From: Capniomyces stellatus
Lineage: Eukaryota > Kickxellomycota > Harpellomycetes > Harpellales > Legeriomycetaceae
Direction: 5' to 3'
NCBI GenBank assembly: GCA_001661515.1
Contig: LUVW01000001.1
Span: forward strand, 266,582 to 330,581
Length of the DNA stretch: 64,000 nucleotides
Translations under genes and position numbers: made by a program
Shown: positions 942-62,516 of the stretch, in pieces
How positions within the stretch are numbered: position 1 is the stretch's first letter
How the letters are laid out: each line of letters starts with the position of its first letter
The notes under the pieces: generated by a model
What the model saw: the letters and a program-made list of their open reading frames with translations, nothing else
What the model was told of the DNA's origin: nothing
Database searches by the model: none

Positions 942-2459
942 CTACAAGTTGGAGCTAAATTTAACGGATTGGAAGTTAATAACCACATCGTTAATAGCAG
1001 TAGCCACATACTCAACATTGCTGGTGTTAAGCCCAGCACACGATATTCTTCCGTTAGATGTCAGGTAGATGTGGTACTTGTTTTGTAAAACCGAAACCTG
1101 GTTTTCATTCAGCCCAGTGTAACTAAACATACCGATCTGACTAGTGATGTGGCTCCAATCTCCTGGAGTTTCCAATTTCTCCAGCTTTTCTCGAAGCAAA
1201 AGTCTCATCTCCAAAATACGCCCACTCATCAGCTTCAAACACCCCTTCCATTCCAAAAACATGTCTGGCTCGTTCAAGACAAGGCTCGCCAGCTCTCCGC
1301 AGTATCTGGGCGGTGAGCTAACAATTGCTCTTGATGTTTTGGCCAATTGGGTTGCTACTTTACTGGTTATTTCTGCACTGCTGTTCACCACGTGCAAAGC
1401 TCCGCATCGCTCCCCGTACAAACCCATGTTCTTTGCAAATGACTGTGTCACCATCATCTCCATTCCCAATTCAACAAACCTCCTAATCGCCCACACATCA
1501 TCGTCAAGATCACCTGTTGCGAATCCTTGGTATGCGCAGTCAAATATCACATAGTGCCCTCTTGCCGCTATTGCTCTGCCTATCCCCTCCCATTGCTCCC
1601 TACTTGGGTCCACTCCTGTAGGATTGTGTGCGCATGCATGCAGTATAAATACCGACTTTTGTTCCGCACTGTTGATGCTGTTTATCATACCTTCATAATC
1701 AAGCTTCTTGTTTTCCTTATCCCAGTATGCATACGTTCCTGTTGACATCCCGCTTGTCTCCACTACATTGGCGTGATTCCCCCATGATGGGTCTGATATA
1801 TACACCTTCTTCACTCCTGGGTAAAACTTTGACAAAAACGTTGCTCCAATGTTGATTGCTCCAGTTCCGGAAATTGTCTGTATACTAGACACCTACATTT
1901 TGTGTTTGATTGTCATTCTTTAGTCTTGGATCTCCTTTCCACACACATGCACACACACGCATGAATCAACCATGGATAATGGATAGAAGCTAAAATACAA
2001 CTATCAATCTTAAACTCACTCTGTTCTCTTTCAATGCTTTGCTTGATTCTCCAAACATTATTCTTGCTGATCCGCTTAAGAACCCTGGCACACCCATAAC
2101 CCCACTGTATTCGTGGTTTCTGCCCACGCGGCTTATCATCATTTGCTCGGCCTACAGTTTTAACATCGAACTCGCCTTAATTAGCATGTTATAGTATCGA
2201 TATATACGAACCACACAAAATATATTTTTATTCCATTTTTTTTTACCTTGCTGACAACTGGCAACACCCATGGCTTCCCGTTATTGTCCCTGTAAGCACC
2301 AACTCCCAGGTCCACCTTTTTGTTGTTCGTGTCTGCATTGAACATAACCGAGACTTTCAAAATAGAATCTGCTGGCGCAGCTTCAATGTGTGCAAAAGTT
2401 GAACTCACTACAATTTTCACATTTGTTTATATTTACATTTATGTTTCAGTATACATACT
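942..2459 (-). CDS. Aspartate aminotransferase, cytosolic type
   Basis: PLP enzyme that swaps the amino group between aspartate and 2-oxoglutarate; in the cytosol it serves amino-acid balance and the malate-aspartate shuttle. Exons on the minus strand: 2459 (one base), 2407-2247, 2151-2020 and 1892-942, joining to 414 residues, the family's usual length. Visible family marks are VDLGVGAYRDNNGKPWVLP near the N-terminus, NPTGVDPSREQW, and the PLP-lysine motif SFAKNMGLYGERCG. The N-terminus begins directly with the catalytic fold (MSSTFAHIEAAPADS), with no mitochondrial presequence, hence the cytosolic call. The reading phase of exon 2 (starting TG) needs one base from the previous exon. The base before a strong GTATGT donor is A, which creates ATG across a 51-base intron. 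The frame upstream holds no ATG before a TAA. The family call is very sure; the split start is inferred. Confidence 0.93.
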
Positions 2460-8780: not shown

Positions 8781-8854
8781 GCTCTGTTAGCTCAGTTGGT
8801 TAGAGCGTGGTGCTAATAACGCCAAGGTCACAGGTTCGACCCCTGTACAGAGCA
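8781..8854 (+). tRNA. tRNA-Ile (anticodon AAT)
   Basis: Full cloverleaf without intron: acceptor stem GCTCTGT pairs with ACAGAGC, discriminator A at 8854. The D arm is TAGCTCAGTTGGTTAGAGC, the anticodon loop CTAATAA carries AAT (read as IAU after editing, for isoleucine), and the T arm is ACAGGTTCGACCCCTGT. The D and T arms serve as A and B boxes for RNA polymerase III. CCA is not encoded, as expected for a eukaryote. Confidence 0.97.
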
Positions 8855-39472: not shown

Positions 39473-41077
39473 CTTGTGTATTTTTGGCATCAATGTGTCT
39501 AGTACTTTTACTTTATATTTTTCAACATAACCTATTAATGCAAAAGCAGATTGCGTGTTCCATCGTCTTTATTTATCCTTTTCAAATCCACTTTTTATTA
39601 CACGTCTTCAAATCAACAAAGTTACTCGGATAAATCTTTGGTAATTGTTGCAAAAACTTTTTATTATTATTACACTTTTAGGTCATTGAATGGCATGTCA
39701 GTTCAACCAATTAAATCATTGCCATTTTAATACCAGGGAGTTTGATATTAGTTTAGGTTTCGATTATGACTTTGGCTTTGATCTCAAGCCATGATTTTGA
39801 CTTTTTTTTTTCTCTTTTTTTTTCTCTTCTTGCGCTTGGTATTCTGTTGGGGTTTGGTGTTGAGCGTGTTCCAATAAACACAGGTCGACCACTTTAGTAA
39901 TCGCATTCAGCACCAATATACAAAAACTAGTAAAAGCCGTTGCAGCTATGCTCGAAACAATTTCTAGCCATAACACTAGTAAACTATTATTCTATCAACA
40001 AACTTTTAGTATAAACAAACTAGACTTTTGTGCTTTCCGATTAAGTTGTCCAATCTAAACGACTCGGAAATGCATAGTATATATGTTTCAATCAAGTATT
40101 TCCTTAACTTAATACACTAATCATAAACTTTTTAAATCTATTTATGTTTGATGTACAAGTTATAGCTTATTGATCTGAATTCGTAGTATATTTTGTATAT
40201 ATTCAGTGATGTGTTTTAAAACGAACACGCGTTCACCCCAAATAAGAACAATCTGGTATCGGAATGATTAAGATGCTACAAAGCTCCGGGAACTGACCTT
40301 GCGAGATAATAGCTCGTGTATAAGTAGAACCTTAGATTGCTGATGTGAGGTAATTGTTTTAATATTTTTTGATTCATGCACATTGGTCCAGTTTTAGCAC
40401 TGAGTAAAATAATATTTAAACCAAGTCGAATAAGAATAACGCTACTGTTAATTGAAAAGGGCCGAGTTTTAAAAATCACGGTCAAAGCATGAATGAGTAG
40501 TAATCAAATGGCGTTGGGCTTTAAATGATTTACTTATGGGTCGTATCACAATCTTCAAGAGTAGAATAGTACCATTCGCGATTATAGGCTAACTTTATAC
40601 CAGACCATTCTTTTAATAAACAAATCGCAATGCTCAGAATTAATAATTCCACATTGATCCGCAACTAGAAACCCAGACCCATTAATATAAATATTTAATA
40701 TATTTCCTCGAGCCTAATTTTTAACTTAAATGCACTAGACATCGAAAAAGCAATACTATGCCATGTTGAATTTAAAAAATTAAATTAAATAGAGTAAATC
40801 TACCATACAACTCTAACTTATTTACTGAGATTTACAAGGTGCTTGAATTTTCAAGCTTAAAAAACACGTTGGAAAAATAACCAGGCTTGTGGTAATAGCA
40901 CAACCGTATTCAACAATGTGGAATTGATAAACCAGGTCAAAGCAGAGTCGAAATGGGCTAACTAGTATAAATACAAAGACTTTTGGGACATTAATTTTCT
41001 TAGATTATCATCACCTTTCGGTACATTTAGATTAGATTTAGAGTACATCAATAACCAAGATACCAAATTAAATAAAC
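39473..41077. other. Intergenic upstream of DBR1 (-) and the Cys-Arg repeat gene (+)
   Basis: About 1.6 kb, AT-rich. A minus-strand open frame at 39764-39976 has a hydrophobic start and Lys/Glu-rich end but no ATG in frame. No clear gene or control site otherwise. Confidence 0.5.
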
Positions 41078-42010
41078 ATGAGGGTGTCATCAATTTCAAT
41101 TTACGCAGTAGCAATCCAGTGCTTCTCAGGACTAGTCCTCGCAAACAGCGACTATGACAGATCCGAAAGCAGTGTTGTTCTTAACAAGGACGACCTGTAT
41201 AACATGGATCTGCATCCTAACCAGTTGGACCAGCTCTTAGACAGCGACATTGGTCTCAGCAGCGCGGATAATGAAGGATTTGGATCAGTTCTCCGCTCAA
41301 GACGCAAGTCATGTTGCAAGAGCCGCAGATCATGTCACAAGAGCCGCAGATCATGCCGTAAGAGCCGCAGGTCATGTTGCAAACGTCGCAAGTCGTGCCA
41401 CAAGAGCCGCAAGTCATGCCGTAAGAGCCGCAAGTCATGCAGCATGCGCTCGTGCCGCAAGAAGTTCAAGTCATGCAGACGTAAGGTTTGCAGAAAGAAG
41501 TGCTCACGCAAGTGCAAAAAGATTTGCAAGCGCGTAGGCAAAGGAGGTAGAAAAATGACAAGAGGTAGAAAAATGAAGAGAAGTAGAAATATGAAGAGAG
41601 GAGGAAGAATGACAAGAAGGCGCGGAGGATGTCGCAGATCTTGCAAGAAATGCAGCAAATGTGTATTATCCAAAAAGTCTAAGCTTCAAGCCATGTTCAA
41701 GGACCCAAAGTTCGACGCTTTAAAGGCAGAATTCAAGAAGCTCAGGGCCGCAGGTGCCTTTAAGAGAACTAAGAAATACCAAAAGCCATCAGCATTGCCA
41801 ATAAGTGTTAGAAACAAAAGAGCCAGATATCCTACCGCAAGAAATAATATGTTTAGATCTGATAAAAGACAACCTAAACCAGCTCTAATCAGGGCTAAAG
41901 CTCCAATCAAGGCTAGAGCTGCTGTCAAGGCTAAAGCTGCTATCAAGACTAAAGCTGCTGTCAAAGTTGCAACCTCAACCCCAGCCCCAGTCAAAACCAT
42001 AAAAGCATAA
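41078..42010 (+). CDS. Secreted Cys-Arg-Lys-Ser repeat protein, copy A
   Basis: Intronless, 310 residues, family not recognised. Order of parts: signal peptide (MRVSSISIYAVAIQCFSGLV, cut likely after LVLA near 22); an acidic spacer to about 75 (NMDLHPNQLDQLLDSD); seven exact-length 7-residue repeats of the form R-[KR]-S-C-x-K-S coded at 41303-41449; a further Cys/Lys region (CRKKCSRKCKKICKR); Met/Arg/Gly-rich stretch; CRRSCKKCSKC; then a moderately conserved FKDPKFDALKAEFKKLRAAGAFKR block; and a Lys/Ala tail with AVKAKAAIKTKAAVK repeats. The mature chain is extremely basic and holds about 20 Cys in the middle third. The acidic spacer could act as a propeptide that balances charge. A secreted cross-linked matrix, adhesive or antimicrobial role is inference. 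A paralogue lies 1.3 kb downstream. Confidence 0.85.
   Translation: MRVSSISIYAVAIQCFSGLVLANSDYDRSESSVVLNKDDLYNMDLHPNQLDQLLDSDIGLSSADNEGFGSVLRSRRKSCCKSRRSCHKSRRSCRKSRRSCCKRRKSCHKSRKSCRKSRKSCSMRSCRKKFKSCRRKVCRKKCSRKCKKICKRVGKGGRKMTRGRKMKRSRNMKRGGRMTRRRGGCRRSCKKCSKCVLSKKSKLQAMFKDPKFDALKAEFKKLRAAGAFKRTKKYQKPSALPISVRNKRARYPTARNNMFRSDKRQPKPALIRAKAPIKARAAVKAKAAIKTKAAVKVATSTPAPVKTIKA
41303..41449 (+). repeat. 21-base (7-residue) tandem repeat in copy A
   Basis: Seven head-to-tail units with consensus CGCAAGTCATGCCGTAAGAGC, coding R-K-S-C-x-K-S. Unit variation lies mostly at the residue after Cys (Cys, His, Arg, Cys, His, Arg, Ser), a near-regular three-step pattern, suggesting a higher-order 63-base unit. 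Confidence 0.95.
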
Positions 42011-43322
42011 ATTGATTTATATGTTTTATTCCTTGTTTTTTTAGAATACATTCAACGTTTTGACATTTTATAAATAATCTTTTTAAGATAAACTCGTTGA
42101 AAATAATTCATGTTTAAATTCCCTCATTAAATCAAACTACTAAAACGAACAGATATAACTTGGATGCAAGTGAGTGGTAGCACTCAACTGGCTCACCGTT
42201 TATTATTACTATTACTATTACTACTAATATTATTGCTGAAATGGCGTTGCCAGTTTAACTTTTTTCTAATTTAAATATCACTTCGTTTTTCGCAACCACC
42301 CAAAATACATGCATTGAACTCAATAAAGAAAAAGTGAAATCAAACCCCTGCTATTTTGGGCTACGCGGTTAGCTAAAACAGAGTGTGTATCTGTTGTATA
42401 TACTGGGGATTGTAGCGGTCAGAATTTGGATGCAAGTATATATCACTCTGGGGTTTCAAAAGTTAGAATTGATCGACGCTGAGTGTCGTAAAAAAAGTGT
42501 GTGCTTTTTTTGTGTTTCAATTGTATTGAAAATGTGGCTATAGTTGCTTTTAAGTATCTAATGCTTTATATTACATAGCAATCTTATGGCACTGGCTCAA
42601 TTTTAGAGCTAATACTGTCAATTATAAACAAGAAACAAATAGGGTAGTATTAAAAACTTTGGTTCAATCGAGAAGAATATGTATATACATAAAAAAGCTA
42701 CAAACCCCATTTTTTTCAGATTAAATTCGTGATTGTTTGTTAAGACGGACTTATTAGATAAAAATACCAAATAAGTTTGGTGATAATTGCTGATCGCCTT
42801 TGGATAAATAATGCTGGCATAAACTCAATATATTAAAAAATCGACTTAAAATCACGCCGAGCATTTATATACCAATAACACTGGCTGCGAGCTTTAATAT
42901 AGTTATAAAGTCAACTGCACAGGTACAGTATAAAACTTGATCTACAAATATTGTAATGTAAAAATGGCAACTAAATTAAACATTCTCGATTTGGTTTAAT
43001 ATGCATGTTATATTAGTACATCTAGACTATTTACAATAGTGATATACCACCAGCATAATTGTTTTTAATCAATTAATTTGATTTTCAAAGCTAGTTAGAG
43101 ATACAAGCTGAAAATATAGCAAGTTTAGCAATACAAGCGTTAGAAGTAGCTATACTCAGTATAAGAAACACTTTCAGAAAATACAGTTAACATTGTTAAA
43201 ATGAAATGTAAAAGTATCTATAAATAGCGAGGGACCACGCCTGAAAAATAAAAGATTAAAAACTTATAGACATATTTTACTCAATACCCTAAACCACGGT
43301 AAAGGTAAAATAATAGAACATC
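42011..43322. other. Spacer between the two Cys-Arg repeat genes
   Basis: About 1.3 kb of AT-rich DNA without a gene. I see no match between the upstream flanks of the two copies; the similarity starts at or just after the start codons. Confidence 0.55.
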
Positions 43323-44456
43323 ATGAAAGTATCATCAATTTCAATCTACGCAGTAGCAATCCAGTGCTTCTCAGGACTAGTCCTCGCAAACAGCGACTAT
43401 GACAGATCCGAAAACAATGTTGTTCTTAATAAGGACGACCTGTATAACATGGACCTGCACCCTAACCAGTTGGACCAGCTCTTAGACAGCGACATTGGTC
43501 CCAGCAGCGCGGATAATGAAGGATTCGGATCAGTTCTTCGCTCAAGACGCAAGTCGTGTTGCAAGAGCCGCAGATCATGTCACGAGAGCCGCAGATCATG
43601 CCGTAAGAGCCGTAAGTCATCCTGCAGACGTCGCAAGTCATGCCACAAGAGCCGCAAGTCATGCCGTAAGAGCCGCAAGTCATGCAGCATGCGCTCGTGC
43701 CGCAAGAAGTTCAAGTCATGCAGACGCAAGGTTTGCAGAAAGAAGTGCTCACGCAAGTGCAAGAAGATTTGCAAGCGCGTAGGCAAAGGAGGTAGAAAAA
43801 TGAAAAGAGGTAAAAAGATGACAAGAGGTAGAAATATGAAGAGAGGAAGAAGAATGACAAGAAGGCGCGGAGGATGTCGCAGATCTTGCAAGAAATGTAG
43901 ACGTTGCACTCTGTCCAACAGACCAGCCATTAAAAAGATGTTTGCAAACCCTAAGTTTGATGGCTTGAAGGCAGAATTCAAGAAGCTCCAGGCTGCAGGT
44001 GCCTTTAAAAGACCCCAAGCCGTCGTCCCAAAAGCAAGAAAGCTCAACACCAAGAGGGCAGTACTACTCAAAAATGCAGCACCACTCAAAAATGTAGCAC
44101 CACTCAAAAATGCAGCACCGCTCAGAAATGCAGCACCACTAAAAAATGCAGCACCTAGCCAAAAAGATTTCCGCAAAAAAGATTTCCGCAAAAGAGTTAC
44201 ACGCAAAGGAGATACACGCAAAGGAGATACACGCAAAGCAGGTTATAAAAAAGGTGGATCCAGAAAAGCTAGAAGAAGAGTCAAGAGAAAGTTTACCATG
44301 AAGGGCAACAAATTGGGTAAAGCCTCAAGACCAACAACTAAGCCATACATTACCAGACCTGTCTTAGCCAAACCAGTTGTGTCAGCAACAGTCCCAGTAA
44401 ACTCTTCTCCAGTCAAGACAGCCCAAGCCACCACTGCAGCCAGCCCACTAAAGTAA
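43323..44456 (+). CDS. Secreted Cys-Arg-Lys-Ser repeat protein, copy B
   Basis: Intronless paralogue of copy A, 377 residues, not recognised as any known family. The first 200 or so residues nearly match copy A: signal peptide starting MKVSSISIYAVAIQCFSG, acidic spacer, seven 7-residue R-[KR]-S-C repeats (43548-43694), the CRKKCSRKCKKICKR block and CRRSCKKCRRC. A conserved ANPKFDGLKAEFKKLQAAGAFKR block follows. The tails then diverge: copy B has six copies of L-[KR]-N-[AV]-A-P (about 44069-44156), then RKKDFRKR and RKGDTRKGDTRK basic repeats, and a Pro/Ala/Thr-rich end. The chain is even more basic than copy A. Likely exported through the ER, where the Cys could pair. Recent duplication plus fast change of the tail is the simplest history; function is open. 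Confidence 0.85.
   Translation: MKVSSISIYAVAIQCFSGLVLANSDYDRSENNVVLNKDDLYNMDLHPNQLDQLLDSDIGPSSADNEGFGSVLRSRRKSCCKSRRSCHESRRSCRKSRKSSCRRRKSCHKSRKSCRKSRKSCSMRSCRKKFKSCRRKVCRKKCSRKCKKICKRVGKGGRKMKRGKKMTRGRNMKRGRRMTRRRGGCRRSCKKCRRCTLSNRPAIKKMFANPKFDGLKAEFKKLQAAGAFKRPQAVVPKARKLNTKRAVLLKNAAPLKNVAPLKNAAPLRNAAPLKNAAPSQKDFRKKDFRKRVTRKGDTRKGDTRKAGYKKGGSRKARRRVKRKFTMKGNKLGKASRPTTKPYITRPVLAKPVVSATVPVNSSPVKTAQATTAASPLK
43548..43694 (+). repeat. 21-base (7-residue) tandem repeat in copy B
   Basis: Seven units in the same number and order as copy A, with one Ser-Ser-Cys variant (AAGTCATCCTGCAGACGT) at unit 4, so repeat number was fixed before or homogenised after duplication. Confidence 0.95.
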
Positions 44457-59316: not shown

Positions 59317-62300
59317 TTATAAAAAGAACTTTTTCTCCCTCAATTTTATGATTTTCTTTAGAATAACCCTCGAGTTTTGGATTTTTTGGGCCTTCTTGAT
59401 CTCAGACTCTTTTAATTCGGCTTCTTTGGCTTCTTCCTTAGCTACAGCCTTTTTCTTCGCAGTTTGGGCAACTTTCAACTCGGCCTTTTTTGCTGCCTCA
59501 TTTTTGGCCTCAACAACCTTTGCTTTTTTTGCAACCTCAAGCTGCTTTTTTTTGGCATTTTTTAATTCTGACGCTTTTTTGCCTAGTTTCTTGATGAAAT
59601 TGATCTCTTCTGATAGCTCTAACTCATCCTGGTTTACTTGAAGCTCGGCCTTTGCTGCTTCCTCCAGATCATCTTTTGCTTCCTCCTCTCTTTCTTTTGC
59701 TTCCTCTTTGGCCTTCATTGCCTTAAACAACTCTTCAGATTTTTTCTTCTCAGCCAATTGTGCCTCTTCCATTGTTTTCTTTGCCCTTTCCAACTCCTCT
59801 GCCCTCTTTCTTACCAATTCCTCTGATCTCTTTTTTGCTTCGTCCTCGGCCTTCTTTGCCGCTACCAGCACTGCAGCCTTTTTATCTGCCTCAGCTTTGG
59901 CCTTTTCTTTGGCTGCCTTCTCCTTTGCCATCTGCTCCTCCATCAATTTTTTAACCTCATTTCTTCTTTTCTTTTCTGCTTCTTCCCTGGCTTTTCTTTC
60001 CTGCAGCTCTTTCTCCTCCTTGATTTTTTTCTGTCTTACTGCCTCCTCTTTGGCTTTTTTGATTTCAGCCAGCATTTTAGCCTGTTTCGCCTTTTTCTCT
60101 TCATCTTTCTTATTTAGGTTGCTCAGCATCTCCATTATATCACTTTTTCTTTGTTTCTCAACAACTTTCTTTGCTTTTTTCAGTTCCCTTTTGGCTTTTT
60201 TCAAGTCTGCAACCCTCTTAGCCTCAACAGCCTTATCATCCGCCTTTTGCTTTTCCAATGCTTTCTTTGCTGCTTCCAGATCTGCAGCTACTTTTTTCTC
60301 GGCGGCTTTATCTTTTGCCTTCTGCGTCTCCAATGCCCTCTTTGCCTTCTCTAAATTCTCAGCTATTTTCTGTTCTGTAGCTTTATCTTTTTTCATCTTT
60401 TCCTTCAGCTTTTTTTTCATCTTTTTAATTCCTTCCGTTTTTTTTTGTTCAATGATCCTGTCCCTTTTCTTTTGTATATCAAGTGCTAATTTGGCTGCTT
60501 CCAAATTTGCAATTTTGTTTCTCTCAACAGCTATATTTTGGTTGATCGAGTTTTTCTGTGTTCGATCTACCTTAGCAGCGATCTGCTGTTGAGAATCTAG
60601 TTTTTTGGAGTTTGCTTGCTTGTTGTACCTCTGGCAGCCCTTACAACCGCCCCTTGGTCGCTGAGTTGCTTAATCAACTGCTCTCTTTTGGCCTTGGCTG
60701 AAGTTCTGAAATCAGCCAATTCTTTCTTGGCAGTTGTGTAGTTAACAGTATTCTTTTCTAAAACAGCTTTATCTTTTATTTTTTGATCCTCCATGGCTTT
60801 GACAAGTTTTTTAATGGCATCAACTCTAGCTTTCACCTCAGCTTCTGATTTTGCTTTCTGGCTTTTCATTTCTTTCTGTGCAGCTTTGGAAGCTGCTTTT
60901 TTCTTCATTATCGTGGTTTTGTTAACATCCTTTAACTTTGTCAACGCCTCGTCGGCTTCCTTCACTTTGGCCTCTTTTTTCTGCTCGCTTTCGGTATTGC
61001 TGGCTATCTGCTCCTTCAATGCCTTTTCTACATCTTCCAAGGCCTTGATATGTTTATCTATAAGGAGTTTAGCCTTTGCATCATGCTCCTGCTCTGCTTT
61101 TTTGATTGCCTCGGCATTCTCCTGCCTTTTTTTATCATCAATGTCTTCTTGGCTATCTTGCTCGCTTTTTAGCTTTTTAACCAACATACTCTTTGTTCTG
61201 CTAGCTTTTTTTTTGGTTGTCTTTAGTTTTCTGTTTGCTGTCTTCACATCATCAGCTTTCTTCTTTTCAGCAGCTCTATTGCTTTCTTTCTGCTCTTCCA
61301 ACTCTTGCTTGGCTGTCTCCAAAGCCTCTTCACTTTTGGACTCAGCAGCAGAGTTGGCCACTTTACTATCCTGAATTACCTTTAGAGATTCTTTGATGCT
61401 ATTGACTCTTTTTTGGTGAGCTGCCTTGATTTTTTCTTTGAACTCAGCTAATGATTTTTTCTTGTCTGCCAAAATTATTTTTTTCTTTTCTCTAGCAGCT
61501 TTAGAAGCTGCCCTAAAATCATCTAAAACTTTTTTGACTCTTCTGACATTGGCTGTTCTGTTTTGGGCAACTGCTTTGTCCTTGGCAAGCTGGCCTTTCA
61601 ATTTTACTTTAAGGGTATTGAGCTTTGATACCGCAGCTGCTATGTCGACAGCTGGTGTAATAGTAACAGCAGCTCCGCCTACTTTGATACTAAGATTTTT
61701 AGGAACATTGGCGCCACTAACTGGCGACGCTTTTGGGATGTCTACTGTAGCTGAGGCCGTAGCTATTGGCCTTATGTCACTTACGGATGTCATCATTGGT
61801 CGAACAGATGGCTTAATTGGCATCACTGAGGAAATGGGTCGAACAGATGGCCGAATCGGTCTAGGAAGGATTGGCTTTACAGCACCTCCAGATGTTCCGC
61901 TTCTGGCATCTTTCCCGTTGGGAAAAATAGCGTCAACAAAGTCGTCTCCAAGGGCCATTATCAGGGTCATGATCTCTTTGTTGGTGAGGTGGCCATTAAC
62001 ATTGCTACGCAGACCTCTCGACGTGTCTCTGGCAACTCTGCTGCTCTCTCTTCTTGAGCCGCGTCTAGGCGGACGTCTGCTCAGCCTACGTCTAAATGAT
62101 CCACGTGTTCTCATGTCACGGTTGCCTGTGATTCCTGCGTTTGGATCATCTATCGCAATCACTGGTTTGTTTTTGACAGATCTTGCGCCAGCTCTGTTCA
62201 AGTTGGCTTTTTTTGGAATGGCTTGGTTAAAGTCGTGTCTGTTGTACTTTTCTCTGCTAAAAGTACGTCTATTGTAGTTACGCCTGTTTAAGTTTGCTCT

Positions 62301-62516
62301 GTTGTACCTGGTCCTGCTTTTGAAAATGTTGGTGTTTGAAGCAGCCGATTTTGCAATTGTAGAGGCAGCTGGCATGACTACTGGAGTAGCGGCAGAAGCA
62401 AAAGTGGCAGCTGCTGCCAATGTAGTCCCATTTGACTTGGCGATACTGGTTGTGCTGGCATTTATAGAATGTACAACTGCCAAGTTCACTAAAGCATAGT
62501 GTAGTGATACTTTCAT
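59317..62516 (-). CDS. Secreted Lys/Ala-rich 25-residue-repeat coiled-coil protein, frameshifted
   Basis: Intronless and not recognised as a known family. The first frame (62516-60597) codes 639 residues: signal peptide (MKVSLHYALVNLAVVHSINA), Ala/Thr stretch, an Asn/Arg/Tyr-rich basic region (RYNRANLNRRNYNRR) and an Arg-rich block (RRRLSRRPPRRGSRR). Next come a short folded-looking part (NKEIMTLIMALGDDFVDAIF), a Pro/Ser region with PIRPSVRPI repeats, then coiled coil. A stop follows a run of six A (60606-60601). The other frame continues to 59317 for about 427 more residues with the same repeat (NQNIAVERNKIANLEAAKLA), so both frames were almost surely one gene of about 1066 residues. The repeat period is about 25 residues, for example KDKAAEKKVAADLEAAKKAL and KDKATEQKIAENLEKAKRAL. 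The indel may be a sequencing error, a null allele or programmed slippage. Two separate genes are unlikely, since the second frame has no start of its own. Confidence 0.75.
60601..60606. other. Homopolymer at the frame break
   Basis: Six T on the + strand (six A on the coding strand) directly before the TAG that closes the first frame. A one-base length difference here is enough to connect the two frames. Confidence 0.7.

Follow-up and report, generated by a model that had tools for sequence, protein, structure and literature searches.

The glue of gut fungi that live in insect larvae is described by morphology in the available parts of two sources, and the protein proposed for it there is a fasciclin-domain candidate (PMC5954228, PMC7270078). 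Thalli of the Harpellales have a secreted holdfast, described in the portion at hand of one source for genera other than Capniomyces (PMC7270078); in excerpts of the other, Harpellales spores release glue at certain pH, and a fasciclin-domain protein, FISCoG.g2, is proposed as a gut adhesin of the order (PMC5954228). Here we analyse a 64,000-nucleotide stretch of DNA, hereafter the window, from Capniomyces stellatus (contig LUVW01000001.1, positions 266582–330581; contig C1 of the 59 contigs, 24.5 Mb in all, that made up the genome we searched). This stonefly hindgut fungus has an assembly of 72 scaffolds, 24.8 Mb, an N50 of 596 kb and a GC content of 37.8% (PMC4974312); an excerpt of a second study places it in the non-Smittium clade, with 72 scaffolds, 24.85 Mb and 37.82% GC (PMC5954228). 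The window carries two neighbouring genes, A and B, for highly basic, cysteine-rich proteins, and a third paralogue, C, lies on another contig. Their sequences are best explained if this Harpellales gut fungus has a small secreted family to which all three belong as prepro-proteins, and we regard the family as a concrete, testable candidate for the attachment glue.

Both neighbours are intact, intronless open reading frames (ORFs) under the standard code, as the original prediction had it. A search of the genome with A located C on the minus strand of contig C50 (17627–18460; 277 residues). When residues 1–74 of A, comprising the leader and the acidic part, or the basic part of C were used as queries, A, B and C alone were matched at E ≤ 10; as far as these searches reach, the family has three members. 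Judged by their patterns of change, A, B and C are real genes under protein-level constraint. The ratio of nonsynonymous to synonymous substitution (dN/dS) between A and B is 0.37 overall, 0.12 over codons 1–74 and 0.15 over codons 75–152, and rises to 0.62, a sign of weak constraint, over the 30 codons of the Met-containing basic stretch that follows codon 152. Differences between the copies are not a random mixture of synonymous and nonsynonymous changes. In comparisons with C, synonymous sites are saturated and dN is 0.25–0.28 for A and 0.26–0.34 for B. Alignment shows the same order of domains in all three paralogues: a leader, an acidic segment, a basic Cys domain and a C-terminal block.

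That the N-termini are of a secreted type, as originally proposed, is well supported for all three proteins by leaders judged on hydrophobicity and on the −3/−1 rule. The residues at −3 and −1 are V/A in A and B and V/S in C, a conserved N-S follows in each case, and outside the leader the most hydrophobic 19-residue stretch averages no more than 0.83. The 51-residue acidic segment (pI 4.1) had been viewed as a propeptide that masks the charge of the basic part. We reject charge masking on the net charges: the segment contributes −8 in A and B and −9 in C, far too little against the +91, +106 and +90 of the respective remainders. Since it is conserved at the level of residues (33 of 51 identical between A and C), the segment would seem to serve in sorting or folding and to be more than a spacer. 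Acidic residues are kept at 10 of 11 columns aligned with C, a count that the alignment itself favours. At the boundary that follows, A and B read RSRR and C reads RSRH.

The body beyond this boundary is strongly basic and Cys-rich, in line with the initial description, with a charge of +90 to +106. The basic Cys domain comprises 124, 124 and 165 residues with 19, 18 and 22 Cys in A, B and C, respectively; that of C also holds 20 His, and the mature chains contain no Trp and only 2, 2 and 0 Tyr. Of the seven R-[KR]-S-C-x-K-S repeats ascribed to A and B, seven units are indeed present in each, and inspection by eye finds the motif exact in five of them in A and four in B. Cys recurs every 7 residues in A and B and every 10 in C. 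Composition shuffles reached the number of Cys pairs at the repeat spacing in 17 of 10,000 trials for A, in 304 for B, a weaker result, and in none of 10,000 for C at spacing 10. Because the period differs, the Cys array was probably either expanded separately in A/B and in C or replaced, with its basic-Cys character retained. C138, C142, C146 and C150, spaced by 4, are conserved across the family, and pairs at this spacing lie weakly above shuffles (385 and 296 of 10,000). In aligned positions Cys is kept at 17 of 19 (A/C) and 16 of 18 (B/C), matches that alignment also tends to favour. Basic-to-basic swaps number 17 for A/C (shuffle mean 18.7) and 16 for B/C (shuffle mean 18.6), no more than shuffling produces, and we make no claim of selected K/R exchange.

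The C-terminal block is built around an invariant motif, MF-x2-PKFD-x2-KAE-x-KKL-x3-GAFK. An amphipathic helix was considered here and rejected, as the moment of the block is not raised: 396 to 553 of 2000 shuffles equal or exceed it. Beyond the block C ends after 7 residues, whereas A and B continue into basic tails of 81 and 148 residues, whose dS is about 2.5.

A and B were described as a tandem pair. They are neighbours, as that term implies, while their likeness is uneven: codons 1–191 are near-identical and the remainder has diverged. Excluding Met and Trp, the same codon is used at 158 of 171 amino-acid-identical positions in codons 1–191 and at 14 of 24 in codons 192–230 (Fisher P = 5e-5, a nominal value, the break point at 191 being the best of 200 tried). 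The 600-base flanks of the two genes gave no alignment better than E 0.3. Recent simple tandem duplication does not fit diverged tails and flanks around a near-identical 5′ part, and the simplest account would be an old tandem duplication followed by gene conversion over that part; unequal exchange would leave a similar pattern. A and B seem to offer a small and clear-cut example of gene conversion in which leader and repeats are kept alike while the tails diverge.

No family in the databases searched accounts for these proteins. None of the three has a match above the curated cut-offs of Pfam or NCBIfam, including any to protamine-like or ribosomal families. At E ≤ 10 the only Pfam match is a sub-threshold one of A to RRP7 (13.6 bits against a cut-off of 23.3), and the best of 13 matches to PDB sequences at this threshold are the PARP1 zinc fingers (E 0.027 to 1.3); we judge both compositional and reject them as homology. 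A set of 5.8 billion proteins, which includes at least some from Zancudomyces, Furculomyces and Smittium, yielded nothing at E ≤ 10 either for A (1815 candidates) or for the alignment of the three proteins (8000 candidates, those with the most words in common); relatives may have escaped these searches, which depend on exact word matches and in which basic repeats may displace genuine candidates. Scans of viral contigs and prokaryote genomes found no relative, as expected for a fungal gene, and literature searches confined to open-licence full texts, without subscription papers, turned up no description of such a protein. With nothing above cut-off and a conserved signal-like leader, we set aside a nuclear protamine or a ribosomal protein.

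All three genes have TATAAAT or TATAAAA 104–113 bases 5′ of the ATG, at −113 in C. In the matching stretch of eight other window ORFs, an imperfect control because some are internal exons, TATAAAW was absent (0/8) and TATATAT occurred in three; the frequency of TATAWAW in random 160-base stretches is 0.188. Codon usage in A, B and C (mean log-odds per codon −0.03 to −0.08) lies nearer that of EF1A and EF2 than does usage in any of eight background window ORFs (−0.32 to −0.65), yet well short of those two genes. Two pieces of a coiled-coil-like gene in the window, which were not counted among the background ORFs, have values of −0.25 and −0.32. These figures offer a weak hint of good expression, made weaker by the fact that tandem repeats copy their codons.

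Table 1. Features of the window, with positions counted from its first nucleotide. TRF, Tandem Repeats Finder.
Feature	Position	Strand	Remarks
Gene A	41078..42010	+	310 aa, intronless ORF, standard code; kept in B and C
Gene B	43323..44456	+	377 aa, intronless ORF; 77% aligned identity to A
Signal peptide-like leader of A, codons 1-22	41078..41143	+	hydrophobic core, V-x-A/N site
Signal peptide-like leader of B, codons 1-22	43323..43388	+	hydrophobic core, V-x-A/N site
Acidic conserved segment of A, codons 23-73	41144..41296	+	pI 4.1, net -8; 33/51 identical to C
Acidic conserved segment of B, codons 23-73	43389..43541	+	pI 4.1, net -8; 33/51 identical to C
Seven 7-residue Cys-basic units of A, codons 76-124	41303..41449	+	translation; TRF period 21, 41303-41444
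Seven 7-residue Cys-basic units of B, codons 76-124	43548..43694	+	translation; TRF period 21, 43548-43685
Cys-Lys block of A, codons 126-152	41453..41533	+	alignment; C138, 142, 146, 150 spaced by 4
Cys-Lys block of B, codons 126-152	43698..43778	+	alignment
Met-containing basic 6-residue repeats of A	41540..41617	+	TRF period 18; absent from C
Met-containing basic 6-residue repeats of B	43785..43862	+	TRF period 18; absent from C
Four-Cys cluster (C-x3-C-x2-C-x2-C) of A, codons 185-195	41630..41662	+	four Cys invariant in A, B, C
Four-Cys cluster of B, codons 185-195	43875..43907	+	four Cys invariant in A, B, C
C-terminal conserved block of A, codons 196-230	41663..41767	+	22/34 residues (196-229) identical to C
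C-terminal conserved block of B, codons 196-230	43908..44012	+	20/34 residues (196-229) identical to C
Fast-evolving basic tail of A, 6-residue Ala-Lys repeats	41768..42007	+	TRF 41888-41964
Fast-evolving basic tail of B, LKNAAP and TRKGD repeats	44013..44453	+	TRF 44058-44155, 44187-44238
TATA box (TATAAAT) of A	40966..40972	+	112 bases upstream of ATG
TATA box (TATAAAT) of B	43219..43225	+	104 bases upstream of ATG
Tract of A near-identical to B, codons 1-191	41078..41650	+	codon comparison
Tract of B near-identical to A, codons 1-191	43323..43895	+	codon comparison
Coiled-coil-like gene	59317..62516	-	Lys/Ala-rich
tRNA-Ile (AAT)	8781..8854	+	Rfam, gathering threshold
Aspartate aminotransferase exon	945..1748		closest to Zancudomyces culisetae

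We propose, tentatively and at somewhat less than an even chance, that A, B and C are polycations that are secreted into an extracellular matrix and can be crosslinked there, plausibly as a glue or coat of spore or holdfast. The leader would direct the proteins into the secretory path, where the acidic segment may serve as a sorting or folding pro-piece, perhaps cut off in A and B at the RSRR boundary, and the cationic chains could be packed into secretory material through polyanion binding. A chain with a charge of about +90 or more and 18–22 Cys should bind polyanions strongly and be crosslinkable once oxidised; after release, Cys may oxidise or react with quinones to give a crosslinked matrix on the surface of spore, wall or holdfast. 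Given the secreted holdfast of the Harpellales and the pH-dependent release of glue from their spores, the likeliest single use would be a glue or coat that attaches trichospores and thalli in the host gut. Disulphide linkage, and action as a glue, wall component or antimicrobial, are inferred.

Several findings weigh against this proposal. A glue general to the order should have orthologues, barring very rapid evolution or loss of the matches through low complexity, and no orthologue was found at E ≤ 10 although proteins of three other Harpellales genera, relatives that likewise make holdfasts, are in the set searched. Tyr is nearly absent from the mature chains, so that they would lack 3,4-dihydroxyphenylalanine (DOPA) chemistry of their own; the putative cut site is not conserved in C; and KR and RR sites are so dense that Kex2 could shred the chain. 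The codon adaptation index of A, B and C (0.44–0.46) is matched by the coiled-coil pieces (0.42 and 0.45) and stands far below that of EF1A (0.83) and EF2 (0.75). Finally, fasciclin-domain loci, the published class of candidate adhesin, are present in this genome; its seven fasciclin matches fall at three loci (C2:240419, C30:98911 and C34:577129).

In a bolder form, the family would give the glue of the Harpellales holdfast a first component known at the molecular level: a pre-packed, charge-condensed polycation, released at the gut pH change and cured through Cys oxidation or tyrosinase-made quinones. We think this unlikely as a whole. Curing by quinones makes chemical sense for chains rich in Cys and Lys, and the large tyrosinase family would supply the enzyme. 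Tyrosinase domains give 21 matches in the genome, of which a few are fragments of a single gene; six are on contig C29 and six others lie within 25 kb of the first base of their contig. One tyrosinase-domain ORF (C50:24195–25685) is about 6 kb from C. Linkage at this one locus is weak evidence for quinone curing, and we reject it as proof of tanning: the family is large, 6 of the 21 matches lie near contig starts, and the match on contig C1, the only one listed there, lies some 1 Mb away from the A/B pair. Contigs with tyrosinase matches include C29, C2, C56, C50, C53, C31 and C5, and an entry on C40 has two in-frame stops. The matches at C2:20206–20733 and C56:20206–20733 have equal scores, which suggests a duplicated contig end or assembly copy.

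If the acidic pro-piece were removed and the basic Cys-rich chain or its fragments killed or agglutinated competing gut bacteria, the proteins would be antimicrobial polycations. The prepro layout, acidic and then basic with Cys, agrees with this, as do a gut habitat full of bacteria and the 20 His in the basic part of C, which recall histatin-like peptides. A body of 204–304 residues would, however, be unusually large for peptides of this kind, at most 10% of the charge is balanced by the acidic part, Cys spacing is not conserved (7 against 10), and no antimicrobial family was matched in Pfam or NCBIfam; we regard an antimicrobial role as doubtful. It is improbable that the proteins are never exported and instead condense polyanions in the vacuole or in secretory granules of the spore. 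A leader followed by a cationic body would suit the packing of polyphosphate or acidic glycans, and codon usage hints at good expression, whereas 18–22 Cys per chain would better fit an oxidising, hardening use, and no family of this sort was matched.

Liberation of many short peptides by a Golgi protease, as from a Kex2-processed repeat precursor (KEP), is quite improbable. Past the acidic part there are 16, 20 and 24 KR and RR sites in A, B and C, and cutting in silico releases HRH four times and SCA three times from C and KSCCKS, SCHKS and SCRKS from A. When three alike fragments between such sites are required, judged by eye, C qualifies through HRH, A is borderline and B has fewer, namely the two loosely alike KSCCKS and SCHES. 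No repeated fragment is common to C and A/B, later units of A and B have RK where KR or RR is needed, and any Arg-rich repeat nearly satisfies the formal rule. A chromatin or DNA-packing protein, protamine- or H1-like, would require the N-terminus to be misleading. The Arg/Lys/Cys-rich body and the Ala-Lys-rich tail of A do recall protamines and H1 tails in composition. All three paralogues nevertheless have a signal-like leader with a fitting cleavage site, where A/B dN/dS is low, the acidic segment is conserved, and no protamine or histone family is among the Pfam families at E ≤ 10, which leaves a chromatin role very improbable.

The GC content of the window is 36.5%, and the aspartate aminotransferase exon, 67% identical to its closest relative, is sister to Zancudomyces (Harpellales) in a 15-row tree (support 100/99), bearing out a fungal genome. 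A stick-insect (Timema) entry for this enzyme carries its C-terminal part twice and looks like a chimera of gene model or assembly. The coiled-coil-like gene, about 15 kb from B, is long, begins with a signal-like N-terminus, is rich in Arg in its first part, and is split into two frames at an A-run near 60600, through either a sequencing error or a real break. It has no Pfam match, and its first 292 residues have no other genomic copy at E ≤ 1; it possibly encodes another secreted structural protein. The tRNA gene is the sole Rfam match at the gathering threshold in the window.

Among described systems, the KEPs of fungi are, in the portion of the source available, secreted precursors with internal repeats and many KR and RR sites (PMC6339444). 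A, B and C share these properties, with a signal-like leader, and differ in that their repeat fragments are not conserved among paralogues while the flanking domains are; they more probably work as whole chains than as KEP fragments. To the adhesin FISCoG.g2 they compare as secreted products, by prediction, of the same fungal order with a proposed part in gut attachment, as far as the excerpt goes (PMC5954228), and differ in having no Pfam fasciclin match in any of the three. Spore-wall proteins of microsporidia, according to the section consulted, tether the spore to the host through heparin-binding motifs and basic clusters (PMC5848443). The likeness, within that section, lies in basic clusters at the spore surface of a fungal lineage. 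In contrast, with X as any uncharged residue, XBBXBX occurs 4, 0 and 1 times and XBBBXXBX 0, 0 and 1 times in A, B and C, neither being conserved, and no BAR2 or other match was found in them.

Protamines are small nuclear proteins without a signal peptide. They resemble the present proteins in an Arg- and Cys-rich basic composition, and differ from them in lacking what A, B and C possess, a signal-like leader and a conserved acidic segment, with no Pfam match to connect the two. Silaffins have modified Lys pairs and phosphoserine and bind silica, and DOPA-based cement proteins have a Tyr-rich mature chain. Our general searches, in which neither group was sought by name, found no homology of silaffins or cement proteins to A, B and C. 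Like silaffins and the cements of mussels and sandcastle worms, A, B and C would be secreted, repeat-built, basic proteins that set into a matrix; unlike them, they have almost no Tyr and carry Cys in nearly every unit. If the proposed role is correct, they would represent an underwater adhesive or coat built on Cys and charge instead.

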